Assembly: GCA_025774865.1 (NCBI GenBank)
Contig: JALGZO010000672.1
Span: forward strand, 1 to 19,201
From: a bacterium
Lineage (GTDB): Bacteria > ARS69
Direction of reading: 5' to 3'
Length of the DNA: 19,201 nt
Below, piece by piece: positions 2,681 through 17,015 of the stretch (position 1 is the stretch's first letter; each line of letters begins with the position of its first letter). The notes under the pieces are model-generated. The model saw only the letters and a list, made by a program, of their open reading frames with translations, was not told the DNA's origin and did no database searches. Made by a program: the position numbers and the translations under genes.

Positions 2681-5600
2681 CTAGGGGAGATCGGTGAGTG
2701 ATCGGAAGTATCTCCGGATCAGCTCCTCGTACTTGGGAGGATAGCGCCGGTCGAGCGCCTTGAGAAGGTCCTCTCGAAGATCGCGCTTCTCATCTTCCAG
2801 CCCCGGGGTGAGCTCCGGCGGCGTTAGGCGATCGGCGAGCTCCTCGCCGGTGCGCGATCGGCGCTCTCGACCGAAGTCTCGCTCGCGGATGGAGCGTTGC
2901 GCGTCGAGGAGACGGGTCAGCGCCCACTCCTGCTCCTTCAGCACGCCCTCGTCGAACTCGCCGCGCGCCATCTTCTCGGCCGCTTCGTCGAGCTTGCGCT
3001 CCACATCGTCGAGGCGACCCAGGAAGCCCTGGCCGTCCCCGAGCTCGTCGATCAACTGCTGGAGCTGATCCCGAATGCGCTGCTGCTCTTCGGCGAGGCT
3101 TCGCATCGACCCCTGAAGGCGCTGATCGAGACTCATGCCGTTTTCCTTCATCATCTGCTGCAGCATCTGATTGAGCTTCTGCTGATCGCCGGACAGTTCC
3201 TGGAGCTGCTGCATCATGCCCGACATGGGCATGCCGCTCGAGCAGCTCGACATGCTCTGCGCCGCCTGGAGCAGCTCGATCACGACCGCGTTCATGCTCT
3301 CGACTGCCTGCGCGCCGTCGTCCTGAGCGATGTGAACGGCGCCATTCTCCAACCCGTAGGCGGCGTCCCGCATGGAGTCGAGGCTTCGCTCCAGCTCCTT
3401 CCCGACGGCCGAGTCCATGAGCGGCGTGTTCTTCGCGACCTCCTCCAGTTGCCGTTCCACTCGCTCGGCGCCCTGGATCAGCAAGTACTGCTCGTCGGCG
3501 AAGGACCGGGTGGCGGACGTGGAGTTGCGGGGAATCGTCTCCAGGTCGAGTGCGAGAACCTCCTCGTCGCCGGACAGCGAGAGCAGATCACGGACCGCGC
3601 GATTGATGGCGGCCTGATTGATCGCCATCATCCGCGCCGACATCCCCATCTGAGCGCCGCTGAGGTTCTCCAGCATCTTGCGCAGCTGAGTGAGCGCTTT
3701 CTCCCCCTGCTCCTGAGCTCCCGGAACGTCCTGGCTCTCCATGTTCTCGGCCATTTCGTCCATCGTGCCGGGGACGTCCCCCGACTTCATCTGTTCGGAC
3801 AGTTCCTGCATGGACTGCTGATCCACGGAGTCCCGGAGCTCCTGGGTCATCTCCGCGAGCTCCTTCATGGTCTCCTCGAGACGGCGGGCCTCTTCGGCGA
3901 GCGCCCTCTCTTCCTCGGCAAGGCGATCGAGCTCTTCCTGGCTCGGCTCGCCGCCCGGGTCCTTCGACTCGGAGCTTTCCCCCGACTCGGCTTCCTGGTC
4001 CTTCTCCGAAGCGTCCGCTCTCTCTTGCCCGGACTTCTCGCCTTCGGATTTCTCACCTTCGGATTCCTCGCCTTCGGATTCCTCGCCTTCGGATTTCTCA
4101 CCTTCGGACTTCTCGTCACCGGCTTTCTCACCGTTCTCGGCGTCGGCGAGCTGATCCTCGTTCTTCTCGCCCTCTTTCGCGGCTTGATCCAGCTCGTCGT
4201 TCACGCGCTCCTGGCGAGCGGCGAGCTCCTCGAGCTCGCGCACCGCCGCCTTCATCTTCTCCTCGAGACGGAACTGCTTCAGGTTCTCGAGAATGCGATC
4301 GAGGTTCTCGGTCAGCTGTTCCTGGGTCATCTGGAATTCCGCGAGATCCTCTTGCATCCGCCGCGCGTTCATCTCTTCCATCGCTTCGCGCAGCTTTTCG
4401 AGCGCTTCCTTCATCTCGTCGGTCGCGACTTCGTCCAGGAGCTTCTGGATCTGCTCCATCTTCTGCATCGCTTCGAACGTCGCGAACTCCGATTCGGTCA
4501 GGCGCTCGAGGTTCGACGAGATCTCCGCCTGGAGCTCCTGCAGCTGGTCAGAGAGCTTCTCCTGCGCCTCCAACGCTCGCTCCACTTCCTTGCGGTTCTC
4601 CCAGGATGAGTCTCCCTTCTTGAGAATCTCGCGCGAGAGCTGCTCGACCTTTTCCTCCACGCGACGCGCTTCGTCGACGATCTCCTCGAGGTCGTCGATC
4701 GACGCCTCCTCTCTTTCGTCGATCTGGGCGAAGATCTCTCCGAGGGTCGGGAAGCGGAGGACGTACACGCGGGTCCGGGCGGTGGACGGGCCGTCCACGG
4801 CGTTGTTGTCCCTCACCTCGAGGTGGTACGCGACCGTGTCCCCCGGCAGCAGGTCGAGGTCCGAGAGGTTCCATTCGAAGCGCTCGTTGATCTCGGTCCG
4901 CCGTCCGGCGGGGCGATGGATGACGCGGGAGTGCGCTTCGCCCTCTTGCCGCCCGACCTCGAAGACGAGCTTCACGGGGCCGAGCCCGTAGTCGTCGATG
5001 GCCGAGAAACGGAGCGCGACCGTCATGCTTTCGTCGAGGTCGCGATCTTCCGCCGGCTCCAGCAGGCGGATGAACGGAGCCTCGTCGGTGAGCGCGCGCA
5101 CGCGGTATTGCAACGGGTTCTGGTTCGTGAGGCCGAGCGAGTCCTCGATGTGCAGGCGGTAACTGTCCTCTTCGACGATGGCAAGCTCGCCAGTGAGGAG
5201 CCTCCCCTCTTCGACCGCGAGGGGGACTTCGGTTCCGCTGTCGAGAATCAGGGCCGCGGCCGCCGGCTCGTTGGTGGAGCGGATACTGAGCCGCGCGGTC
5301 GTGCCCTTCACGGCGGCGAGATCGCCGGAACCGTCGCGAACCGAGCGATCGACGAGTCCCGTGTACTCCGGATAGTCGTAGCGGACCTCGTCGATCGTGA
5401 GGCTCGGGTGCGGCACAGCCTCGACGGCGTGGGTAGCGGAGTACGCGCCCTCGTGAGAGAAGCGGTAACGGAACGATTCGCGTACATCGGAGAAACGGTA
5501 CCGGAACTTCGCGACCGCAACGCGGGAGTCGCCCGGACGCGTTTGCACGGTGGCGTCGGCCTCGCGGCCCACGAGATCGATCTCGCTCCAGGGCGACTCT

Positions 5601-6316
5601 TCGTCGGCTCGCCAGAGAAGCCTTCCCTCAGCGTTTCCGGCGCGCAGCGCCGCATTCTCGACGAGGACCGAGAGCTCGATGTCCTGCCCGCGCGGGATCG
5701 AAATGTCGCCGGGCGTCACGTAGAACTCGGCGGGCAACCGTGGGCCGAGCTCGCGAGCAGCGAACGCGAGCCGGAGAACCGCGCTCCCCACTCCGCCGAG
5801 GCCGAGCACCAAGACGGCGACGATGACCGCGGCGAGCCCCGCGCCGGCGACGCCCAGAGCGCGGCGGACGCTCACGTTGTACGGGAGCGCCGAGGCATCC
5901 ACGCGGGCAACGCGTTCTACCGTGTCGTCGACGAACGCATCGACCAGCTCGTGCGAGTACCCGGTCCGACGCTCGTCGCGTACTCGCAGGACCTGGAGCG
6001 CGGGAACGAGCCGCTCCTGGAGGGCCTCCGTTTCGACCTCGGTCCGCCGGGCCGCTTCCTCCAGATCGCGCAGGGCCGGTAGGCGACGCAGCAGTGCCCC
6101 ACCGATGAGAGCGAGGGGAAGAGCGACCGCGACCCCGAATCCGAGGAAGCGGACCAGGGCCGGCAGAGGCATGAAACGATCGACGACGAGCAGAATCGCG
6201 AGCACGAGAAGGGCCGTGCCGAGCCCCTTCGCGGCCGCGGCGAGCAGGATACGCGAGGTGTGGTGCGAACCGAGCCGCCGGGCTTCGCGCCTCAGTCTTC
6301 TCCCGCTGTCCGTCAT
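2681..6316 (-). CDS. DUF4175 family membrane-anchored coiled-coil protein
   Basis: This is a 1211-aa protein starting at ATG 6316, with a GGAG-like SD about 9 nt upstream. TM segments are seen at about residues 23-45, 53-76 and 153-175. A beta-rich region (about 190-510) with Ig-like stretches such as PAEFYVTPGDISIPRGQ follows. A very long Glu/Lys/Gln-rich coiled coil (about 520-1110) is interrupted by an acidic Ser-Glu-Gly-Glu/Lys repeat (about 734-765) and a Met/Gln-rich stretch (about 1010-1050). This order of parts is typical of DUF4175 proteins, whose molecular role is unknown. Most of the protein is probably outside the cytoplasmic membrane. It starts 16 bp after the DUF4159 stop and ends 28 bp before the DUF2723/TPR start, so the three are probably one operon. 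In other genomes such genes occur with MoxR/DUF58/Bat-type genes; none is visible here. Confidence 0.88.
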   Translation of the reverse strand: MTDSGRRLRREARRLGSHHTSRILLAAAAKGLGTALLVLAILLVVDRFMPLPALVRFLGFGVAVALPLALIGGALLRRLPALRDLEEAARRTEVETEALQERLVPALQVLRVRDERRTGYSHELVDAFVDDTVERVARVDASALPYNVSVRRALGVAGAGLAAVIVAVLVLGLGGVGSAVLRLAFAARELGPRLPAEFYVTPGDISIPRGQDIELSVLVENAALRAGNAEGRLLWRADEESPWSEIDLVGREADATVQTRPGDSRVAVAKFRYRFSDVRESFRYRFSHEGAYSATHAVEAVPHPSLTIDEVRYDYPEYTGLVDRSVRDGSGDLAAVKGTTARLSIRSTNEPAAAALILDSGTEVPLAVEEGRLLTGELAIVEEDSYRLHIEDSLGLTNQNPLQYRVRALTDEAPFIRLLEPAEDRDLDESMTVALRFSAIDDYGLGPVKLVFEVGRQEGEAHSRVIHRPAGRRTEINERFEWNLSDLDLLPGDTVAYHLEVRDNNAVDGPSTARTRVYVLRFPTLGEIFAQIDEREEASIDDLEEIVDEARRVEEKVEQLSREILKKGDSSWENRKEVERALEAQEKLSDQLQELQAEISSNLERLTESEFATFEAMQKMEQIQKLLDEVATDEMKEALEKLREAMEEMNARRMQEDLAEFQMTQEQLTENLDRILENLKQFRLEEKMKAAVRELEELAARQERVNDELDQAAKEGEKNEDQLADAENGEKAGDEKSEGEKSEGEESEGEESEGEKSEGEKSGQERADASEKDQEAESGESSESKDPGGEPSQEELDRLAEEERALAEEARRLEETMKELAEMTQELRDSVDQQSMQELSEQMKSGDVPGTMDEMAENMESQDVPGAQEQGEKALTQLRKMLENLSGAQMGMSARMMAINQAAINRAVRDLLSLSGDEEVLALDLETIPRNSTSATRSFADEQYLLIQGAERVERQLEEVAKNTPLMDSAVGKELERSLDSMRDAAYGLENGAVHIAQDDGAQAVESMNAVVIELLQAAQSMSSCSSGMPMSGMMQQLQELSGDQQKLNQMLQQMMKENGMSLDQRLQGSMRSLAEEQQRIRDQLQQLIDELGDGQGFLGRLDDVERKLDEAAEKMARGEFDEGVLKEQEWALTRLLDAQRSIRERDFGRERRSRTGEELADRLTPPELTPGLEDEKRDLREDLLKALDRRYPPKYEELIRRYFRSLTDLP
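4041..4115 (-). repeat. Five tandem 15-bp units inside the DUF4175 gene
   Basis: Five consecutive copies of a 15-bp unit (plus-strand form CCTTCGGATTTCTCA with a few variable bases) lie in frame. They encode a repeated Ser-Glu-Gly-Glu-Glu/Lys pentapeptide. A degenerate partial copy lies just left of position 4041. Because 15 is a multiple of 3, changes in copy number would lengthen or shorten the linker without a frameshift. The encoded linker is acidic and likely disordered, between coiled-coil segments. Confidence 0.9.
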
Positions 6317-6332: not shown

Positions 6333-6992
6333 TCAATTCATCATCGCATAGGCGACGACGTTGATGGCCATGCGCATCGCCTGCTCGCGGACGTCGGGGG
6401 GATCGTTGTGGACGTCGGCGTCCTCCAGCCCGTCCCCGATGTCGGTGTTGTACGAGTAGAAGACCACCATGCGGCCTTCGTGAAAGATCGCATATCCGTG
6501 GGGGGGACCACCATGGTGCTCGTGGATTTTCGGCAGTCCCTTGGAGAAGTCGTAGACCGAATGGTAGACGCCGTGCCCGAATGGAAGCTCCACGAGCTCC
6601 TCCTCCGGGAAGATCCGGCGGACCTCGCGCCGGAACGACTCGTCCATCCCGTAGTTATCGTCGGCGTAAAGGAACCCCCCGTGCACGAGATACCACCGGA
6701 GCCGTTCCGTCTCCTCCGGAGTGAAGCGAACGTTGCCGTGGCCCGTCATGTGCAGAAACGGGTAGTCGAAGAGCTCGTCGTCGAGAGGCCCCACTCGCCC
6801 CTCCTCGGAGTCCACGTTCATGCCGAGGCGGTCCCGGAGCTCGCGCGCCAAGTTGGGCAATGACGTGGGGTTGGCGTACCAGTCGCCCCCCCCGGAATAG
6901 TGCAGCCGGCCCAGCCGGACCGAGGAACCGGGGCTCTCCTGGCCGGCGATCGGAGCCAGGAGCAGGGTCGAAGCCAGCAGGGCAGGCACCAC
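6333..6992 (-). CDS. Secreted DUF4159 domain protein
   Basis: This is a 219-aa protein starting at GTG 6992. SD GGAG lies 6 nt upstream, and an in-frame TAA at 7032-7034 with no ATG/GTG/TTG between rules out a longer form. Residues 1-18 look like a signal peptide (hydrophobic LLASTLLLAPIAG). The mature part shows DUF4159 features: RLHYSGGGDWYANPTSLPNL (29-48), FLHMTGHGNVRFTPEE (79-94), a LRWYLVHGGFLYADDNYG stretch (98-115), a His-rich GLPKIHEHHGGPPHGYAIF (152-170) and FYSYNTDIGDG (178-188). DUF4159 is thought to have a glutamine-amidotransferase-like fold, but no catalytic Cys is present (I see no Cys at all), so catalysis of that type is unlikely. It is the first gene of the unit with DUF4175 and is probably a periplasmic partner of it. 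Confidence 0.88.
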   Translation of the reverse strand: MVPALLASTLLLAPIAGQESPGSSVRLGRLHYSGGGDWYANPTSLPNLARELRDRLGMNVDSEEGRVGPLDDELFDYPFLHMTGHGNVRFTPEETERLRWYLVHGGFLYADDNYGMDESFRREVRRIFPEEELVELPFGHGVYHSVYDFSKGLPKIHEHHGGPPHGYAIFHEGRMVVFYSYNTDIGDGLEDADVHNDPPDVREQAMRMAINVVAYAMMN

Positions 6993-7147: not shown

Positions 7148-8974
7148 TCAAGGTCCGCCTGCTCGCCCCAGCGCCTCCCAGCCCTCCCGGGCGAGGGGCT
7201 CCCGCGGATTCCACGCGAGCGCCCGCGCCAGCTCGTCGCGGGCCCGCTCCGTCTGCCCGAGCCGGAACGCGGTGAGCCCGGCGTAGGCCGCCATGCGCGC
7301 CGCGTAGCCCAGCGCGTTCGAGAAGTGAGTGTCTTCCGGGGGGTCGGGCCCCGGCGGCAGCTCCGGCCACGGCGCGGGAGGACCGAGGGCGACCTTCGCG
7401 TCGGGGTCGTCCAGTCGGAACAGCAGACCGTCCGGCACACGAACCCGGTCGGCGCCGATCCCCGCCTCGATCTCCGGCGTGATGTAGGCGCCGCCGCGTG
7501 CGCTCCCATTCGCCAGGATCCCGTTGATCACAGCCTCGAACTTCGCCTGGATCTGGGCGGCGTCGTAGGGTTCGTCGCGCTCGAACCGATGAAGCAGCCG
7601 TTGCAGATCGGCGGCCTCGTTCCCGAGGCCTTCGAGCAGATCGGGATGGTGCCGCTCGATCCACGGGAGGTTCCAGCTCCGGCGGAAGTGCTCCTGGTCG
7701 AGCAACGTCAAGTCTGGGCGAATCCCTTCGACCTCCTGCAGGTAGAGGGCCGGCGACTGCAGCACGTCCCAGTGCGCGGTCAACACCACGGCACGCTGCC
7801 GCGGCGTCTCCAGGAAGGAGTGCGCCATCGCTTCCACCCAGCGATCGTCGGATCGATCGGCCGCGCGCCACCCTTGAGCGGCGGGGAGCAGCGGGAGGGC
7901 GAAGAGCGCCGGCACGAGCCGTGAAGCCGCACCCCCCCGCTTCTCCCCCCACTCGACCAGCTGCACGAATCCCAGCCCGATCCAGATCGCCACGAAGAGA
8001 AACGGCGGCAGGAAGTACGTCTCGATGTCGTGGATGTCGTACCCGAGCGGGTAGAGGACGGCCAAGACCGACATCGCGAGACTCCCGGCGAGAAGGCCGC
8101 GGATCCGTCGCGCGCGCCAGAGACCGGCGACGGCGAACCCGAGGAGCGGCCAACCGAAGCCGGCCGGCAACAGACCGAGGAACTCGCGGAGATTCCGGAG
8201 AAACGCCTCCCCCGACGCGAACATCCACACGCGGTACTGCGCACCGCTGACGTGACGCCAGAACGCTTCCAGCGTCCGAACGCCGCCCCAGTCGAACACG
8301 GGGAACTGCGCCGAGCGAATCGGCAGGAACGCGTAGACGCTGACCCCGAGAGCCGCGAGCCCGAGCCCGGCCGCGAGCGTCCGCCCGGCGACCTCCCGCC
8401 GCCGGAGCCAGAGTGCGAGACCGAACCCCGGCCACAGCAGAGCGCTCGTGAGGTGGTTCGTGAGGCACAGCCCCCCCAGATAGCACGCCGCGAGGAACGC
8501 ACTTTCCCGGAACCGGCGCCCCCCCCACAGGCCGGACCGCACGATCGCGTGCAGGAACGCGGCGTCCAGGAACATCTGCAAAGCGTGCACTTCGGTGACG
8601 GTCGCGACCGACCACATCGTTCCGTTCATCGCGAACGCGAGCGACCCCGTCCACGCGCCGAGCTCGCGAGCCACCCGGCCCTTGCCCGCGGCCGGCTCGG
8701 GCAGAACGTCGCGAATCGTCCGGTGCACCAGAAAGACCGCGCCCGCCGCCAGCACGGCCGACAGGACGTTCATGGCGAGGATCGTACGCATTGGCCACGG
8801 AAGGAGATTCCATGCGCGGCCCACGACCGAGTAGAGCGGATAGCCGGAGGGATGTGCGACGCCGAGGGTCGCGGCGACGCCGGCGAGCTCCCCCGCGTCG
8901 ATCTCCGTGAGTCCCGGAGCCATCGTCGCGAGGTAGACGGCGAGCGCGACGCCGGCGGCGACGAATGCAGTCAC
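7148..8974 (-). CDS. DUF2723 (TMEM260-like, GT-C fold) membrane protein, short C-terminal tail
   Basis: This is a 608-aa protein starting at the GTG at 8974, which overlaps the histidine kinase TGA by 4 bp (GTGA), suggesting translational coupling. Reading further back to an ATG at 9211 would add 79 Arg/Asp/Gly-rich residues lying within the kinase domain, which is implausible. TM1 covers about residues 3-18. The signature EIDAGEL (D26, E29) and LGVAHPSGYPLY follow, then a TEVHAL motif, several TM segments to about residue 400, and an outer soluble part containing YLQEVEGIRPDLTLLD. The end has a single TPR-like helix pair (RARDELARALAWNPREPL). It is a paralogue of the left-edge gene but lacks the long TPR array. 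It is probably a membrane glycosyltransferase; donor and acceptor are unknown. Confidence 0.87.
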   Translation of the reverse strand: MTAFVAAGVALAVYLATMAPGLTEIDAGELAGVAATLGVAHPSGYPLYSVVGRAWNLLPWPMRTILAMNVLSAVLAAGAVFLVHRTIRDVLPEPAAGKGRVARELGAWTGSLAFAMNGTMWSVATVTEVHALQMFLDAAFLHAIVRSGLWGGRRFRESAFLAACYLGGLCLTNHLTSALLWPGFGLALWLRRREVAGRTLAAGLGLAALGVSVYAFLPIRSAQFPVFDWGGVRTLEAFWRHVSGAQYRVWMFASGEAFLRNLREFLGLLPAGFGWPLLGFAVAGLWRARRIRGLLAGSLAMSVLAVLYPLGYDIHDIETYFLPPFLFVAIWIGLGFVQLVEWGEKRGGAASRLVPALFALPLLPAAQGWRAADRSDDRWVEAMAHSFLETPRQRAVVLTAHWDVLQSPALYLQEVEGIRPDLTLLDQEHFRRSWNLPWIERHHPDLLEGLGNEAADLQRLLHRFERDEPYDAAQIQAKFEAVINGILANGSARGGAYITPEIEAGIGADRVRVPDGLLFRLDDPDAKVALGPPAPWPELPPGPDPPEDTHFSNALGYAARMAAYAGLTAFRLGQTERARDELARALAWNPREPLAREGWEALGRAGGP

Positions 8975-11900
8975 TCGGTTGCGTCTTCCGAGGGGAAGAC
9001 GAGCGTCACGGTCGTTCCCGTCCCCTCGACGCTCGCGATGTCGATCGACCCCCCGTAGTCTTCCATGATCGCCTTGCAGATCGGAAGCCCGAGACCCGCT
9101 CCGCCCGTCTTCGTCGAGAAGCTCGGCTCGAAGATGCGGGTCAGGTTCTCGCGCGAGATCCCCATTCCCGAGTCCCGGATCGTGACGCGCGCCCAGCCGT
9201 TCTCCGGACACGCCGTCACGCAGAGGTCGCCGCCGCCGGGCATCGCCTGGATCGAGTTCTCGAAGAGGTTGATGAAGAGGCGCATCACCTCGTCCTTGTC
9301 CACCTTCGTCCAGAGCGACTCCTCGGGCGCGTCCATGGTGAAATCCACGTTGCGGTCATCGGCCTCTCCGTAGAGACGCCTCGCCTCTTGCAGGAGTCGG
9401 CCGAGGTCCTCGCGCTGGATCTTGCGTCCCGGCATCCGCGCGTAGTCCGAGAACTCGATCGCGATTCGCCGCAACGCCTCGCACCGATCGATGATCGTCT
9501 CGGTGGACTCTTCGAGAATCTCGTCGAGCTTGGGGTGCTGGTCGCGCCAGGCTTGCCGCAAATGCTGGGCGGAGAGCTTCATCGGCGTCAGCGGGTTCTT
9601 GATCTCGTGCGCCACCTGCCGCGCCATTTCCGCCCACGCCTTGATCTTCTTCGACTTGACGAGCTCGGACAGATCTTCGAAGACCACCACTGCGCCTTGT
9701 GGCCGACCCTCGCGGTCGACGAGCGGGGTGCCGACGAGGCGGACCGTCCGCAGCTCATCCTCCCCCTCGACTGCGGGCGCTTCGATCTCGTGAACCACTT
9801 CCGAGCGGCTGCCCGAAAGCACCGGGTCGGCGGCCGCCAGGAGGGCGGCCAGCGTCGCGTTGTCGGCGTGCCGGGTGGGTCGATCCCCGATCAGCGCGGC
9901 GGAATCCACGTCGAGAATGCGCGCTGCCGCCTCGTTGACGGTCGCGATCCGCCCGCTCGCATCGAAGCTGATCACGCCGGACGCGACGTGCCGGATGATC
10001 GCCTCGATGTACTCGCGACGCTCCCGGTCGCGCGCTTCCGACTCTGCGAGCCGCTGGGACATGAGGTTGAACGAGCGGACGAGCGCGCCGATCTCGCCCG
10101 ACGCCCGCGTCATGATGCGGTGCCCCAGGCTCCCCGCGCCGATCCGTTCCGCGCCGGCGGTCAGCTCCGTGATCGGTCGCGTCAAACGGTTGGCGAGGAC
10201 GACCGCGGCCGCGATCGCCCCGGTGAATACGAGGAGACACAGAAAGTAGATCCGCGAAAGCACGAGAGAGGCGTCGAGGTCGAGGCCCCCTCCCTGGAAC
10301 GGGGCCAGCGTCGCGAGGATCCCGACCGGCTCACCGCGCTCATCGGGCAGGGGCGCGTAGCTCGACAAGAACGACGTCGTTCCCACCCGGCTCTCGAGCA
10401 GCGTACGACGTGCCCCCTCCAACTCGATCTTCAAGTACGCGATGGACTCCACCAGATCGCTCAAGATCTCCGACTGGTAGAGCTCGGGCTTCGACGTGGC
10501 CGACAGCTGGCCGTGCGTGAAGAAGCTCACCGACGACCCGACGCGTCGTTCCAGCTCCGCCGCGAGCACGGGATCGATGCGCTGGAACGCGAGCACCTTC
10601 CCGCCTTGCGGCAGCGCCGCCGCTCGGGTCGCGACGACGGGCACGACGGCGCACGCGTAGATGGCCGAGCCCCGACGGCGGAAGAACTCGCCCACCGAGG
10701 CGTCGGGGGAGAGCTCTCCCGGGATGAGGGCGATGCCGAGATCCGCCGAGGGGCTTCCGCCGAGGAGGCGTCCCGATTCCTCCACCACCACGATGCCATC
10801 GACGGAGGCCGGCGTCGAAAGCACTCGATAGTCGGACATCTCCCGGAACAGATCGAGCACCTCCTCGGAGCCCGCTGCGTTGCGGGCGGCGTCGGAGAGG
10901 CGTCGGCCGAGCAGCTCGCGCGACACTCGGAGATCCTCTTCGAGCCGTTCCTGGAATTCCTTCCGCTTCTCCTGTACGAAGAGCCCTCTCCCCGCGAAGC
11001 CGAGGAAGACCGTGGGCAGGAGCGACACCAGGAGGAAGCCCGCGATCACGCGTTCGCGGAAGCCCAGGCGCGGCACGTCGATTCGTCGGGGCTCGGGCGC
11101 GATCCACGAGAAGATCATGAGAAACGCGATCGTTCCCACAGCGAGCACGAGCGTCACGAGCGCGGATCGAGCGAGCAGCGACCCGCCCGACAGCAACCCG
11201 TGCCGCTCGATGCCGAACGTGAGATAGCCGACCGTCATTTCGCCGTCGCGCTCCCGCACGCAATAGAGATCGTAGAGCCGGCGCCCCATGCGACGCTCGA
11301 CCCAGCGGCCGCCGTCGGTGCCGGCGAGCGCCTGCACGATGATGGGCGGAACTCGTTTGCCGAGTCCGCCTTCGGGATCGGTCGACGACACGAGCACCTC
11401 GCCGCGGTACCGGTCGATTCGGTCGGGGACCTCGCGCGTGAAGCGGAGAAACTCCTCCGGCGCCGACAGGTTCGTGAAGACGGCGGGGAGCGCGCGTCCC
11501 GCTCCGGGGCGGTGCAGGTCGTCATAGTACGCGAGGGAGAGCTCCAGCGAGCCGACGCGTCGCTCAGAGCGAACCACGGGCACCCGCCCGGAGTAGAGGT
11601 CGATCCGCATCGAGCCGATCTCCTCGCGGCGAAATCGCGTGGCGAGCGTGCCGGGACTCGGCTCCCGGAGCTCGGCCGGATAGCCGAGGCTGAAGGTGGC
11701 GAAAGTTTCGCCGTCCCGATCGATGACGCGCAGGTAGCAGCCGGCCGCGACGTTCGCGAGCGGGCTCTTCGCCCAGAGGATGAACGCGAGGTTCGCCTGC
11801 TCCAACTTCGTCTCCCCGTCCAACGCCTCCGCCACGTCCTCCGATCGCCGCAAGTAGTCCAGAGTGTTCTCGAGCAGGAAGTGACGCGAGTTCGACGGGC

Positions 11901-13674
11901 TCTCCGCGTGCTCGAGCGCGAACAGTTCCACGAGCTCGCGACGACGTGCCTCGATGCCCTCGAACAGCGGCACGAAGTTCGTCAGCGTCGCCAGGAGAGA
12001 GACCAGGAGAATCGCGCCCGCCCCGGGGCGCTCCCAGCGCTTGGAGAGCGCGTGAAAGAGCGCGAGCGCCCCCAGCGCGGGCAAAGGCCGAAGGAAATCG
12101 CCGGCGGACACCTCTTGCGGGTCGCCCATCTTCACGGCCGAGCCGAGCAGCGCGCACGCCCCGACGATGCCCGCGGCCAGCCGGGCCGGGAGCCGGCCGA
12201 GCAGCGCCGAGCCCAGGGTGACGAGCGCATCTCCGTAAAGAAGAAGACCCGCGCCGGCGAGCAGCAACGCCAGCTCGAGGGCCGCGACGGGAGGCGACGT
12301 GAACGGGTCGAGACCGCCGAAGAGCGGGACGTTCGAGTTCCGCGCGATGTCCATCGTGCGCGTCCAGTGCAGGCCGAGCGCGGAGCCCACGAGCATCGCG
12401 CCGAACACCCCGGGCGCGAACGAGAGGATCGGGTGACGCTCTCCGAACTCCCGGATCGAGCGCTCGTGCCGCCAGATGAAGTGACGGATCTCGCGGCCGA
12501 CGAGAGCCAGCGCCACGGCCGTGAGGAGCACGTCTCCGGGCGAGCGAAGGAGGCCGCCGAAGCGGATCGACGCGAACCACGCCGGGTCGAAGACCGCGAG
12601 CGGATCGAGGGCGTCGCGCGGCGACCAGAGGTGAAGCCCCCACCGCACCACGACGACCAGAGCCACCCGGGAGATGAGCGTGAGGATCCCCGACGGCCGC
12701 ACCCGATGTCGCACCGCGGCGGCCGCCGACAGGAACCAGACGTGGGCCGCGGCGAGCAGTGTGATCGCGAGGATCAACCATGACCGGACGCGCGTCCATC
12801 GCGCCACGCTCTCGCGAACGGTGATCCCCCGCGAGAGTCCGGAGAGCGAGACACGGCCGACCGGCGCGCCCGTGCCCGAGACGATGGCGGCGCTCGCCGA
12901 AGCGACGTCCGGACGCACGTTGAGCTTCAGGGCGCCCGCCCGAATCGACTTGATGTCGTCTTGGTCTTCGATCGAGAGCTCGAGTGCGACGTCGGCCCGG
13001 ACACCGCCGCCGCCTTCGAGCCGCTGCAGAACGTCGTCCACCTGGAGGAGGCGGTTTTCGAGCGGGAACTGCACTCGCAGCGGCTCTTGGTACACGACGT
13101 AGCCGAGTACCGGACCGTCGCGCTCTCGGATCGGATGCGTGGCCTCGAGCAGCGTGTAGATGTTGCCTTGCCGAATCTGGACGACGTCGGAGTCGCGGCT
13201 CGGCTCGCGGTTGAGCGACATCGTCGCGGTCGGTGACCAGCCGGACCAGGCGCGGGGCGCGCCGAACGCGTCGTACACCGTCACTCCCCCGGCGCCCATC
13301 CGAGGGAAGCGGTCGAGAAGATCGAGCAAGACGGGACGGCGCGCGGTGCGGGAGAGCTGTTCCTCCGAGGAGAACAGTGCCCGCGTGTCGGGATCGTCCC
13401 CGACGACGCGGATCTCGCGAATGGCGGTGGCGCCTTTCTCCCGCAGGAAACCGACGATGCGTGCCGTGCGTTCTTCGAGCTGGGCGACCGCGAGCGACTC
13501 CCAGCGGGAGTCGAGCCGAGCCTCACGCGCCCACAGGCCCAGCTCGCACGCGATCCCCGCGACGGCGAGCGTCAGCAGAAAGGCGGCGCCGCCCCGGTGG
13601 TGCTTTCGCAAGCGGTGGAGAGCTCCCGCCGCGATGGCGACCATCAGGGCCAGAAGCCCGAGATGAACCGTCAC
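8971..13674 (-). CDS. Giant multi-sensor NtrY-like histidine kinase
   Basis: This is a 1567-aa protein starting at GTG 13674 (SD GGGAG, 7 nt spacing). Two N-terminal TM segments (about 3-18, 28-48) are followed by an outer region (49-297) and a polytopic block of roughly seven or eight TM segments (about 299-572). A second outer region (573-836), two more TM segments (837-857, 874-897), a third outer region (898-1136) and a last TM (1141-1160) follow. The cytoplasmic part has HAMP (about 1161-1215), PAS (about 1216-1328) and HisKA with HEIKNPLTP (phospho-acceptor His1356). The ATPase domain has an N box with ENSIQ (N1473), G1 box DSGMG (D1501), F box FEPSF and G2 box GGAGLGL. All catalytic motifs are intact. 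HAMP-PAS-HisKA-ATPase with HEIKNPLTPM resembles NtrY. No response regulator is visible. The signal sensed is unknown. Confidence 0.9.
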   Translation of the reverse strand: MTVHLGLLALMVAIAAGALHRLRKHHRGGAAFLLTLAVAGIACELGLWAREARLDSRWESLAVAQLEERTARIVGFLREKGATAIREIRVVGDDPDTRALFSSEEQLSRTARRPVLLDLLDRFPRMGAGGVTVYDAFGAPRAWSGWSPTATMSLNREPSRDSDVVQIRQGNIYTLLEATHPIRERDGPVLGYVVYQEPLRVQFPLENRLLQVDDVLQRLEGGGGVRADVALELSIEDQDDIKSIRAGALKLNVRPDVASASAAIVSGTGAPVGRVSLSGLSRGITVRESVARWTRVRSWLILAITLLAAAHVWFLSAAAAVRHRVRPSGILTLISRVALVVVVRWGLHLWSPRDALDPLAVFDPAWFASIRFGGLLRSPGDVLLTAVALALVGREIRHFIWRHERSIREFGERHPILSFAPGVFGAMLVGSALGLHWTRTMDIARNSNVPLFGGLDPFTSPPVAALELALLLAGAGLLLYGDALVTLGSALLGRLPARLAAGIVGACALLGSAVKMGDPQEVSAGDFLRPLPALGALALFHALSKRWERPGAGAILLVSLLATLTNFVPLFEGIEARRRELVELFALEHAESPSNSRHFLLENTLDYLRRSEDVAEALDGETKLEQANLAFILWAKSPLANVAAGCYLRVIDRDGETFATFSLGYPAELREPSPGTLATRFRREEIGSMRIDLYSGRVPVVRSERRVGSLELSLAYYDDLHRPGAGRALPAVFTNLSAPEEFLRFTREVPDRIDRYRGEVLVSSTDPEGGLGKRVPPIIVQALAGTDGGRWVERRMGRRLYDLYCVRERDGEMTVGYLTFGIERHGLLSGGSLLARSALVTLVLAVGTIAFLMIFSWIAPEPRRIDVPRLGFRERVIAGFLLVSLLPTVFLGFAGRGLFVQEKRKEFQERLEEDLRVSRELLGRRLSDAARNAAGSEEVLDLFREMSDYRVLSTPASVDGIVVVEESGRLLGGSPSADLGIALIPGELSPDASVGEFFRRRGSAIYACAVVPVVATRAAALPQGGKVLAFQRIDPVLAAELERRVGSSVSFFTHGQLSATSKPELYQSEILSDLVESIAYLKIELEGARRTLLESRVGTTSFLSSYAPLPDERGEPVGILATLAPFQGGGLDLDASLVLSRIYFLCLLVFTGAIAAAVVLANRLTRPITELTAGAERIGAGSLGHRIMTRASGEIGALVRSFNLMSQRLAESEARDRERREYIEAIIRHVASGVISFDASGRIATVNEAAARILDVDSAALIGDRPTRHADNATLAALLAAADPVLSGSRSEVVHEIEAPAVEGEDELRTVRLVGTPLVDREGRPQGAVVVFEDLSELVKSKKIKAWAEMARQVAHEIKNPLTPMKLSAQHLRQAWRDQHPKLDEILEESTETIIDRCEALRRIAIEFSDYARMPGRKIQREDLGRLLQEARRLYGEADDRNVDFTMDAPEESLWTKVDKDEVMRLFINLFENSIQAMPGGGDLCVTACPENGWARVTIRDSGMGISRENLTRIFEPSFSTKTGGAGLGLPICKAIMEDYGGSIDIASVEGTGTTVTLVFPSEDATE

Positions 13675-13687: not shown

Positions 13688-14197
13688 TCAGCGGTCGAGA
13701 GAGCAGATCTCCCCGACGTACCAGTCGGAGCCGCGCTTCCGGAGCGAGACGTAGACCTGGTCCGTGTGGGTGTCCTCGTCGTTCATCCGGAACTCTCGGA
13801 GAGCGACCGCGTATGGGGACCGGCCATCGGATTCGAGATTCCAGTACTTCTGAAACTCGAAGCGGTCGGTCCGCGTGAACTCGAGCATGTCCTTGAGGAG
13901 GTAGTACGCCTGGTCCCGATTGAAGTAGCCGCCCCGGGGCCCGCCCTCGGTGAACGAGAGGCGCACCTTCTCCTCAGGATCGAGAATCTCGACGAGGGCC
14001 TCGGGATCCCCGTCCGCCCAGGCTTCCTCGAAGGCGGCGAAAACCCCGAGCGGTCCGGGACGCGACGAAGGCTCGGGAAGGTCGCCCCGCTCGATCCCAC
14101 GATCGAGGGCGGAGTCCTGTTCCGCTGGCGCGTCCGCCCCGGCGGGGGAAGCGAGCGCCAGGAGACAGAGCCATGGGGCGAGCCGGAGATTCTTCAC
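13688..14197 (-). CDS. Small exported NTF2/SnoaL-like protein
   Basis: This is a 169-aa protein starting at GTG 14197. The start is chosen because AAGGA lies 4 nt upstream and because it opens directly into a signal peptide (KNLRLAPWLCLLALASPAGADA, cleavage near residue 21-23). The longer ATG at 14251 overlaps the predicted -10 element and has no SD. The mature part has an acidic linker followed by an alpha-helix with FAAFEEAWADGDPEALVEIL and a beta-rich C-terminal half (VRLSFTEGGPRGGYFNRDQAYYLLKDML, then DQVYVSLRKRGSDWYVGEI). This pattern resembles NTF2-like or DUF4783-type folds, but the match is from memory and weak. It is the first gene of a unit with the giant sensor kinase, 13 bp upstream, so an accessory role in sensing is possible. 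No catalytic residues can be assigned. Confidence 0.75.
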   Translation of the reverse strand: MKNLRLAPWLCLLALASPAGADAPAEQDSALDRGIERGDLPEPSSRPGPLGVFAAFEEAWADGDPEALVEILDPEEKVRLSFTEGGPRGGYFNRDQAYYLLKDMLEFTRTDRFEFQKYWNLESDGRSPYAVALREFRMNDEDTHTDQVYVSLRKRGSDWYVGEICSLDR

Positions 14198-14201
14198 GGA
14201 G

Positions 14202-14206
14202 TCCTT
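14202..14206 (-). promoter_or_regulatory. Ribosome binding site that decides the start of the NTF2-like gene
   Basis: AAGGA on the minus strand lies 4 nt upstream of the GTG at 14197. The alternative ATG at 14251 has no purine-rich stretch upstream and falls inside the promoter. Confidence 0.65.
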
Positions 14207-14249
14207 CCCTTCTCTCCGAAACACGCGGAAGCGTACGACGGTTCCTCCC

Positions 14250-14279
14250 ATGATAGGACGAAGCTCGGGGGAGGGTCAA
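14250..14279 (-). promoter_or_regulatory. Sigma-70-type promoter of the NTF2-like/histidine kinase/DUF2723 unit
   Basis: On the minus strand TTGACC (14279-14274), an 18-nt spacer and TATCAT (14255-14250) match the housekeeping consensus well. Transcription should start near 14243, about 45 nt before the GTG at 14197. It sits 31 bp past the secF stop, with no obvious terminator between, so some read-through from secDF is possible. Confidence 0.65.
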
Positions 14280-14309: not shown

Positions 14310-15200
14310 CTACTTGGCCTTTCGCGGCCGCCGCTGCTCCCACTCCACGAGAAGGGGGGTTGCGACGAAGATCGAGGAGTACGTCCCGACGACCACCCCG
14401 ATCGTCAGGGCGAAGGCGAAATCGCGGAGCACTTCGCCGCCGAAGAACAGCAGGACGCCCACCACCACGATCGTGGTGCCCGACGTGACGATGGTGCGGG
14501 CAAGCGACTGGTTCACGCTCCGGTTCAGGATCTCGGCGTATCGCCGGCGCGGCGACGGAACCCGGAGGTTTTCCCGGATGCGGTCGAAGACGACGATCGT
14601 GTCGTTGAGCGAGTACCCCACGATCGTCAGAAACGCCGCGATCACCGCGAGCGAGATCTCGTGGTTCGTAGCGCTGAACACTCCGAGCGTGATCATGACG
14701 TCGTGGACGAGGGCGACGATCGCCGCCACCGCGAACCGGAGCTCGAAGCGAGCCCAGAGGTAGATCAGAATGAGCACGAGGGCCAGGATGACGGCCTGGG
14801 TCGCCGCGCCCCGGAGCTCGCCGCCGATCTTCGGACCGACGGTCTCCTCGCGCCGGAGCACGAGGTCCCATCGGTCCCGGAGCGCTTCCTTCACATCTTG
14901 GATCGCGGTGGAGTCGCCCGTGTTCTGAATTCGGACGAGCATCTCGTTCGGCGCGCCGAACTGCTGGATCTCCGCCTCCGAGTAGCCGATCGCGTTCAGC
15001 GCCTGACGAACCTCGTCCACCGGGACCGGCTCCGGGAACTGGACCTGGATGAGCGAGCCGCCGGTGAAATCGATCGAGTACCTCGGCCCCTGCTTGACGA
15101 TGAGCGAAGCGACCCCGATGCCGATCAGGACGATCGAGATCAGGGCGGCGATCCGCCGCTTGCCCACGAAGTCGAAGTTCGCTTCCGCGAAGAAACTCAT
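14310..15200 (-). CDS. secF: Protein translocase subunit SecF
   Basis: This is a 296-aa protein starting at ATG 15200. The SD AGGAG directly follows the secD stop codon (TAG-AGGAG) and is 5 nt from the start, typical of coupled translation. SecF pairs with SecD in the proton-driven motor that helps SecYEG finish export across the inner membrane. Seen in the sequence: TM1 at about 18-35 and an outer P4 domain starting RYSIDFTGGSLIQVQF. The C-terminal five-TM block carries GAATQAVILALVLILIYLW, the ALVHDVMITLGVFS stretch and IVGYSLNDTIVVFDRIREN, which are SecF family hallmarks. The length is near the usual 290-325 aa. It ends in a basic tail (RRPRKAK). Confidence 0.97.
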   Translation of the reverse strand: MSFFAEANFDFVGKRRIAALISIVLIGIGVASLIVKQGPRYSIDFTGGSLIQVQFPEPVPVDEVRQALNAIGYSEAEIQQFGAPNEMLVRIQNTGDSTAIQDVKEALRDRWDLVLRREETVGPKIGGELRGAATQAVILALVLILIYLWARFELRFAVAAIVALVHDVMITLGVFSATNHEISLAVIAAFLTIVGYSLNDTIVVFDRIRENLRVPSPRRRYAEILNRSVNQSLARTIVTSGTTIVVVGVLLFFGGEVLRDFAFALTIGVVVGTYSSIFVATPLLVEWEQRRPRKAK

Positions 15201-15210
15201 GGGCTCTCCT

Positions 15211-16938
15211 CTAGATCGCGATCTTGCGGACGGTGCCGCCGCGGGTCAGCAGGTCGAATATCACTCTCGAAACGAAGAGGGCGGTGAACATGCTCACGAC
15301 GATTCCGATCGAGAGAACGACCGCGAACCCCTTGATCGGCCCGGTCCCGAACCAGAGGAGCGCGAGAGCCGCGAACAGGGTGGTCAAGTTGGCATCGAGA
15401 ATCGTGCGGAACGCTTTGTCATACCCCCGGTTGATCGCGTTGCGGAATGTCTGCCCGAGGCGCAGTTCCTCCCGGATTCTCTCGAAGATGAGGACGTTCG
15501 CGTCGACCGCCATGCCCACCGTGAGCACGAACCCCGCGATCCCCGGCAGGGTGAGCACGGCATCCAGGTAGACGAGCATCGCCGCGAGAAAACCGAGATT
15601 GAGGAGCAAGGCGAAGACCGCGATGACGCCCGCGACACGGTAGTACACGACCATGAAGACGAGAACACAGACGAATCCGATCATGATCGACTTCGTCCCG
15701 AGGTTGATGGAGTCCTGACCGAGCGACGGCCCCACGGCGCGCTTCTCCTCGATGCGGATCGGCACGGGCAAGGCACCCGCCCGCAGCACGACTGAGAGGT
15801 CCGTGGCCTGCTCCGGCGTGAAGCGTCCGGTGATCGTGGCGGTCCCGCTGCGGATCTTGTCCTGGATCTCGGGAGCGGATTTCACCTTGCCGTCGAGCAC
15901 GATCGCCATGAGCCGCCCGACGTTCTCTCCCGTGGTGCGGCTGAAGAGCCGCCGGCCAGTGCGACTGAGGTCGAACTCGACGAGAAAGTTGCCGGGGACG
16001 TTCGACTGGGTGTCGGGCTGCGGGCGGGCGTCCTCGAGCATCTCGCCGGTGAGCTCGGGCCGCGTGGTCAACAGGTAGAGACTGCGCATCCGGTTCCCCG
16101 AGCCGTCCGTGCGCGCTTCGGCCTGCCAGGCGAACTCGACGTCGGACGGGATGGCTCGCTGAGCATCCAGGTAAGCCAGGTAGGCGGAGATGATTTCCAC
16201 GTCGCTTTCGAGCACCGACGCCGTTTCGTTCACGGCGACCTTCCCCTCGCTCGAGAAGTACAGGATTCGCGACGCGAGAGGGCGCGCCTCCGACGCACTC
16301 ACGTCGTCGGCGAGATACTTCGGCAACTCCGACGAAACCGCGACCGCCGCCGCGACGGTTTCGCTCGTATCCACCGCCGCCGCTACGGTGTCGACCGCCG
16401 CCGAGTCAGCCGCCGCGGTATCGGGCACGACCGGGTCAGCCGGTGAAGTTCCCGTGATCGTCGCGAGCTCCAGATCGAGCCTGTCGACGAGCCTTCGCAC
16501 TTCGCCGCCGGAGCGCACCATCTGAAACTCGAGGACCGCAGCCTTGCTGATGATCTCCTCGGCGCGCTCGGGATCGTCGATCCCCGCGAGCTCGACGATG
16601 ATCCGTTTCGATCCCGCCTTCTGAACGACCGGCTCGGTGACGCCGAACTCGTCGATCCGGTTGCGGATCACCTCGAGCGCTCGGTCCATCAGATCGCTCG
16701 TTTCGACGTCGTCGCCGACCTCCGAGTCGTCGATCTCCAGCACGATGTGCATGCCGCCCTGAAGGTCGAGACCGAGACGGAGCGACTGGAGCTTCATTCG
16801 CTCGAACTCGGCCGGATCCATGTCCCGCCGCGTCTGATCGTCGAGCCGGGCGAATTGAACCGTCGGATAGAGAGCGAACCCCGCGAGCGCGATCGCCCCC
16901 AAGATGATCAGGATTCTCCAGCGGATGTTGAGGTTCAC
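15211..16938 (-). CDS. secD: Protein translocase subunit SecD
   Basis: This is a 575-aa protein starting at GTG 16938 (SD AAGGG, 6 nt). A start 69 nt earlier at 17007 falls at the predicted transcription start and has no SD. SecD acts with SecF as the proton-driven accessory of SecYEG. Seen: TM1 (about 8-25), the P1 signature LRLGLDLQGGMHIVLEID (D58), GVTEPVVQKAGSKRIIVELAG, a head domain, and a C-terminal five-TM block with VGMAVDANVLIFERIREEL and the ending GIVVSMFTALFVSRVIFDLL. Residues about 166-206 form an unusual Ala/Val/Asp-rich low-complexity linker within the periplasmic part. It ends 10 bp before secF. Confidence 0.96.
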   Translation of the reverse strand: MNLNIRWRILIILGAIALAGFALYPTVQFARLDDQTRRDMDPAEFERMKLQSLRLGLDLQGGMHIVLEIDDSEVGDDVETSDLMDRALEVIRNRIDEFGVTEPVVQKAGSKRIIVELAGIDDPERAEEIISKAAVLEFQMVRSGGEVRRLVDRLDLELATITGTSPADPVVPDTAAADSAAVDTVAAAVDTSETVAAAVAVSSELPKYLADDVSASEARPLASRILYFSSEGKVAVNETASVLESDVEIISAYLAYLDAQRAIPSDVEFAWQAEARTDGSGNRMRSLYLLTTRPELTGEMLEDARPQPDTQSNVPGNFLVEFDLSRTGRRLFSRTTGENVGRLMAIVLDGKVKSAPEIQDKIRSGTATITGRFTPEQATDLSVVLRAGALPVPIRIEEKRAVGPSLGQDSINLGTKSIMIGFVCVLVFMVVYYRVAGVIAVFALLLNLGFLAAMLVYLDAVLTLPGIAGFVLTVGMAVDANVLIFERIREELRLGQTFRNAINRGYDKAFRTILDANLTTLFAALALLWFGTGPIKGFAVVLSIGIVVSMFTALFVSRVIFDLLTRGGTVRKIAI

Positions 16939-16944
16939 GCGGCA

Positions 16945-16949
16945 CCCTT
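16945..16949 (-). promoter_or_regulatory. Ribosome binding site that decides the secD start
   Basis: AAGGG on the minus strand lies 6 nt upstream of the GTG at 16938. It favours this start over the upstream in-frame codon at 17007, which would add 23 residues unlike a SecD N-terminus. Confidence 0.6.
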
Positions 16950-17015
16950 TCGAGCGGCGTTCGGTCTCGATACCTGGGCCCCGCGGAATTCCGGGAGCAA
17001 ACCACAAGGGCGCAG

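Follow-up and report, generated by a model that had tools for sequence, protein, structure and literature searches.

A sensor histidine kinase with three Cache-like outer regions and a polytopic membrane block, conserved beside secDF in several bacterial phyla

We identified a sensor histidine kinase of 1567 residues, encoded at 8971..13674 on the minus strand of the window (the whole 19,201-nucleotide stretch of DNA analysed here), whose long N-terminal part presents three Cache-like outer regions around a polytopic membrane block. The gene is a single open frame with a GTG start behind a ribosome-binding-like GGGAGC site, lies 13 nt from the gene upstream, and shows uniform codon-position GC along all 1567 residues. 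It is present once in the source genome, where the remaining matches cover the kinase part only. The original prediction had called this frame and had considered that two genes might have been joined by an assembly error, an artefact of assembly or gene calling for which the fragmented assembly (785 contigs) could speak. However, full-length collinear frames occur in other genera and phyla, one-contig genomes included, and because of these homologues a chimera or mis-assembly joining two genes is ruled out, leaving the artefact a negligible probability. The frame is thus one intact and genuine histidine kinase.

The original prediction had also proposed a search for homologues of the same architecture, and this returned full-length collinear relatives across several phyla. 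In its own phylum, the kinase was found in all five genomes examined, with two full-length relatives (1565 and 1630 aa) and the others cut by contig ends. A first homologue from Krumholzibacteriota, of 1557 aa, came from one random genome of that phylum, and a profile search matched 54 of its 58 genomes, where complete frames measure, with few exceptions, about 1490–1780 aa. By named records, the relatives belong to Candidatus Krumholzibacteriota, including a complete chromosome labelled Latescibacterota (CP070631). The kinase was also present in 7/7 genomes of a third phylum, in 7/8 of a fourth and in the one genome sampled of a fifth. The possibility that it is an oddity of one genome was rejected on the strength of these relatives of similar size. 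A broad sample gave matches in 17 of 290 genomes, some of them weak and including shorter relatives of 1364–1427 aa. Since prevalence is high in several phyla compared with this broad sample, the kinase is lineage-specific but near-universal, and mostly single-copy where present, in at least four phyla.

The topology was derived from hydropathy averaged over 33 homologues together with the positive-inside rule. Thirteen transmembrane (TM) segments were found, at approximately residues 3–20, 30–48, 295–315, 328–347, 380–398, 420–438 and 460–486 (TM1–TM7) and 498–517, 525–543, 552–571, 837–856, 876–895 and 1142–1162 (TM8–TM13). Positively charged cytoplasmic stretches follow TM1 (RLRKHHR), TM3 (RHRVR), TM5 (RHFIWRHER), TM7, TM9 (SKRWERP), TM11 (PEPRRIDVPR) and TM13 (the HAMP domain), and because they alternate as expected, regions A (residues 49–294), B (572–834) and C (896–1140) are placed outside. 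The chain therefore runs from a TM1–TM2 hairpin (residues 3–48, 13531..13668, minus strand, as are all kinase segments below; also helical in the AlphaFold2 model of the window kinase) through region A (12793..13530), a block of eight TM segments, TM3–TM10 (residues 295–571, 11962..12792; hydropathy and AlphaFold2 models), region B (11173..11961), TM11–TM12 (residues 837–895, 10990..11166, with a conserved cytoplasmic GF motif at 871–872), region C (10255..10989) and TM13 (10189..10251) into HAMP-PAS-HisKA-HATPase. This agrees with the outer regions originally proposed at 49–297, 573–836 and 898–1136 and with the eight-TM block between the first two. The contrary outcome, a single outer region, did not materialize: three outer regions around the polytopic block were also seen in two AlphaFold2 models and by structural alignment.

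To assign folds to the outer regions, we used these two models. The first, of window kinase residues 1–1164 built with 17 homologues, is of moderate confidence only (pLDDT 63.6, pTM 0.54), parts of region A falling below pLDDT 50; the second, of residues 1–597 of a Krumholzibacteriota homologue, reached pLDDT 77.4. Aligned with VIA-align, region C of the window model matched the CitA, DcuS and WalK sensors, the best being CitA (Z 12.2 over 120 residues, rmsd 3.0 Å). Region B matched double-Cache sensors, 3lif at Z 10.3 over 186 residues with a high rmsd and 6w3s at Z 9.6 with an rmsd of 2.5 Å over 98 residues, and its model has a long stalk helix. For region A, residues 58–202 of the window model matched CitA (Z 9.2) and DctB (Z 9.1), and the same region of the homologue model matched LuxQ best (Z 9.7), then KinD, DctB and dCache chemoreceptors, with Cache/PDC or related sensor domains making up almost all of its best 50 matches.

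A hallmark that sets Cache apart from PAS domains is a long helix continuing the TM segment before it (PMC4822843). In the window model, helices 552–609 of B and 872–934 of C continue from TM10 and TM12 ahead of the beta sheets, while in A a separate helix (57–92) follows TM2 and precedes the sheets; in all three, a PAS-like beta sheet is modelled outside the membrane between TM helices. Middling Z values can be unspecific, yet each region returns one superfamily and has both a helix in front and correctly ordered strands, and for this reason there is good evidence that A, B and C belong to the Cache/PDC superfamily of extracytoplasmic sensors, in the case of A mainly through the homologue's model. 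The original prediction was thus right that there are three sensor regions, but the distinct folds it expected appear to be a single superfamily. A recent internal triplication was considered and rejected, profile-profile comparison of A, B and C giving at most 4.8% probability and the sequences no evidence of duplication. No ligand-binding motif was identified in the sensor regions of the kinase.

Sequence profiles are nearly silent on this part of the protein. Before residue 1159, Pfam gave only a sub-threshold dCache_3 match to region C (16.3 bits against a cut-off of 25.7); the same profile reached 24.4 bits in one relative (L108). When the sensor halves of homologues were scanned singly, a Cache profile was seen in 1 of 25, below the curated cut-off, and the first 1140 residues of these 25 relatives otherwise gave almost nothing, so that the curated libraries do not describe this part.

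Cache domains are held to signal only via their C-terminal TM helix (PMC4822843). In the modelled topology, only region C fits this wiring directly, its C-terminal helix leading into TM13 and HAMP. The segment from C through TM13 to HATPase would by itself make a complete ordinary kinase and the N-terminal part is the least conserved portion among the 33 homologues, as might be expected if A, the TM block and B were passive remnants with no sensing role. This is very unlikely, however, since the whole extension is kept in nearly all relatives across phyla and residues of the outer loops and of the B domain are strongly conserved.

Within the eight-TM block, residues kept in at least 80% of the 33 homologues lie mostly in two outward loops. 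The first comprises the TM4–TM5 loop and the start of TM5 (residues 361–385, 12520..12594; L361, D363, P364, F367, A368, G374, D381 and T385), with D381 and T385 at the outer end of TM5. The second is the TM6–TM7 loop (residues 446–453, 12316..12339), with N446, A447, N448, L451 and G453 as the family consensus, which reads NANPRLIG in many relatives. The TM interiors are variable, with top-residue frequencies of 0.35–0.49, and conserved polar residues within the membrane are few and close to helix ends (D381, T385 and H467, the last not His in the window kinase). Judged from this conservation pattern, the loops are better explained as an outer surface for binding or docking than as part of a route for transport.

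The original prediction had suggested that the block could itself be a sensor or a transporter-like module. A polytopic block within a sensor kinase, with its two best conserved stretches facing outward, invites a transceptor reading: the block would be, or derive from, a transporter, would bind or carry a solute and would inform the kinase of the flux, the Cache domains being accessory. Such fusions have a precedent in CbrA with its SLC5 domain (PMC7096432, PMC13022988). We regard this reading as unlikely. Pfam gave no transporter family match at E<=1 across the whole kinase, SLC5/sodium-solute symporter included, Foldseek returned only noise for the block, searched within a longer query, and the interiors are poorly conserved with few polar residues held.

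The kinase also has a fixed place in the genome. The order polysaccharide deacetylase, (pdxJ), secD, secF, a secreted DUF4783-like protein, kinase, DUF4159, DUF4175, a TPR protein and a conserved 436-aa protein recurs across these phyla. In the window, family matches identify SecD (15211..17007) and SecF (14310..15200), both on the minus strand like the neighbours that follow. The DUF4783-like, NTF2-type protein of 187 aa (13688..14251) ends 13 nt upstream of the kinase; its DUF4783 match is weak, as in the relatives, and it has a signal-peptide-like N terminus, shared by many relatives. In most relatives its gene immediately precedes that of the kinase, and it is a possible periplasmic partner. 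In the 20 kb analysed in one genome (G119), it alone was retained of the cluster genes looked for. The DUF4159 gene (6333..6992) directly follows the kinase in most relatives (about 27 of 34 loci), often with overlapping ends, and the DUF4175 gene (2681..6316; Pfam, conserved gene order) belongs to the same cluster. We found no paper on DUF4159 or on Krumholzibacteriota kinases in a literature search; for DUF4175 the match was A. baumannii AdvA, a cell-division protein.

Several other features of the cluster were observed. In the window, a TMEM260-like gene lies between the kinase and DUF4159; TMEM260-like (O-mannosyltransferase-like) membrane proteins are encoded at 7148–8905 and 1–2652, one with a TPR tail, and this TPR-tailed form is likewise found after DUF4175 in another phylum. 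A Latescibacterota-labelled relative has CstA, a carbon starvation protein, after the kinase and separating it from DUF4159 (L068:5400-7205). The cluster ends with a protein of 436–449 aa (L017:15913-17223, L041:16559-17908 and equivalents), about 50–87% identical across families and with no Pfam or NCBIfam match. Long open frames overlapping the DUF4175 gene on its reverse strand (2681–6316) are a coding effect of a Glu/Lys-rich coiled coil and not genes.

Pairwise distances between sensor halves track those of SecD (r=0.96), SecF (0.89) and DUF4159 (0.87), with none of 500 permutations as high. This indicates long vertical co-inheritance, which is compatible with a functional link and no proof of one; the kinase gene may lie beside secDF because the two are expressed together rather than because they work together. 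Another explanation is that regions A and B and the outer loops dock onto envelope proteins (SecDF, DUF4159/DUF4175 or the DUF4783-like protein); the kinase would then read how far their complex is assembled or loaded, and A and B would bind no small ligand. The gene order kept across phyla, 4-nt overlaps with DUF4159 in several loci, the divergence matched to SecD and the precedent of LuxP as periplasmic partner of LuxQ (PMC8534201) are in its favour. Yet plain vertical descent is also expected to give matched divergence, and DUF4159 is widespread in the absence of the kinase (112 of 280 genomes; the kinase, 17 of 290), with no giant kinase beside it in the loci checked that lacked a kinase profile hit; we hold this explanation, taken as a whole, to be credible but rather improbable.

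The kinase core proved ordinary and intact, as the original prediction had judged from HAMP, PAS, His1356, N1473 and D1501. Pfam places HAMP at residues 1159–1210 (10045..10200), a cytoplasmic PAS domain at 1229–1339 (9658..9990), HisKA with H1356 at 1348–1414 (9433..9633) and HATPase_c at 1459–1562 (8989..9300), the last two scoring over cut-off at 34.4 and 83.1 bits. H1356, N1473, D1501, G1503 and G1505 are present and conserved, as in orthodox histidine kinases, and the phosphoacceptor box is HEIKNPLTP. The best NCBIfam match of the core is AtoS, a kinase that partners an NtrC-type regulator, at 219.9 bits over residues 1137–1564 only, against an equivalog cut-off of 646, so that the kinase is not an AtoS equivalog; it lies far under every NCBIfam equivalog cut-off listed. 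ZraS is the best PDB match of the core. Together, the box and these matches weakly suggest NtrC-type partners. An NtrC-type regulator is directly downstream only in one genome (G003) and in a relative further removed (G278), and most copies are orphans; searched for in the other four genomes, the G003 regulator has only generic NtrC relatives of ~40% identity and none that is clearly an orthologue. Among the shorter distant relatives, L109:6208-11861 (1427 aa) and L110:4010-8104 (1364 aa), the former has an NtrC-type regulator directly downstream and may be a good system for finding the kinase partner.

On balance, we lean towards an NtrC-partnered sensor of envelope or secretion status with three Cache sensors, region C driving the kinase and A, the TM block and B modulating it. 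As a membrane-embedded kinase with three tandem extracytoplasmic Cache-type sensors, it would take its direct input from C, because only the C-terminal helix of C runs into HAMP, while A, the eight-TM block and B would form a second sensing module adjusting the signal via TM11–TM12. It may report envelope or secretion status through the secreted DUF4783-like protein, as LuxP does with LuxQ, and its phosphotransfer target would be an NtrC-type sigma-54 activator, whose gene in most genomes would lie away from that of the kinase. A bolder reading, which we regard as possible rather than probable, is that several under-studied phyla share an ancient, hitherto undescribed core signalling system, in which a three-Cache kinase monitors SecDF-dependent secretion or the assembly of the envelope and its eight-helix block is a new kind of membrane module for sensing or relay. 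On this reading, two of the three Cache sensors cannot signal via their own C-terminal TM into HAMP, so a different relay would have to exist.

Sensor kinases mostly have a single extracytoplasmic input, adjoining HAMP, and this kinase would be a natural test of how Cache domains remote from HAMP transmit a signal. The fixed position next to secDF, DUF4159 and DUF4175 offers a way into envelope control in lineages for which metagenomes are almost the sole source. Although a three-Cache kinase is near-universal in at least four phyla, its first 1140 residues have almost no Pfam coverage.

Overall, the architecture is well supported and of a kind already known, that of Cache sensor kinases, in a type absent from the family libraries searched. 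With AtoS, ZraS and NtrY-type kinases, which work with NtrC-type regulators, it shares the HAMP-PAS-HisKA-HATPase order, the H-E-I-K-N-P-L-T-P box and, in G003 and G278, an adjacent NtrC-type regulator, but it is about twice their length and in most genomes lacks such a neighbour. Like CbrA, an SLC5-histidine kinase fusion, it contains a polytopic membrane module, but one with no SLC5 match and flanked by Cache sensors. It resembles LuxPQ as a Cache-type sensor kinase with a candidate secreted partner gene adjoining, although that partner is NTF2-like (DUF4783-like) rather than a periplasmic binding protein and its interaction putative. The Cache/PDC kinases DctB, CitA/DcuS, LuxQ, KinD and WalK likewise carry an extracytoplasmic Cache domain between two TM helices, as C does with its last helix leading into HAMP and kinase; the giant kinase differs in having three Cache regions per chain, two of them parted from the kinase by TM segments, and an eight-TM block.
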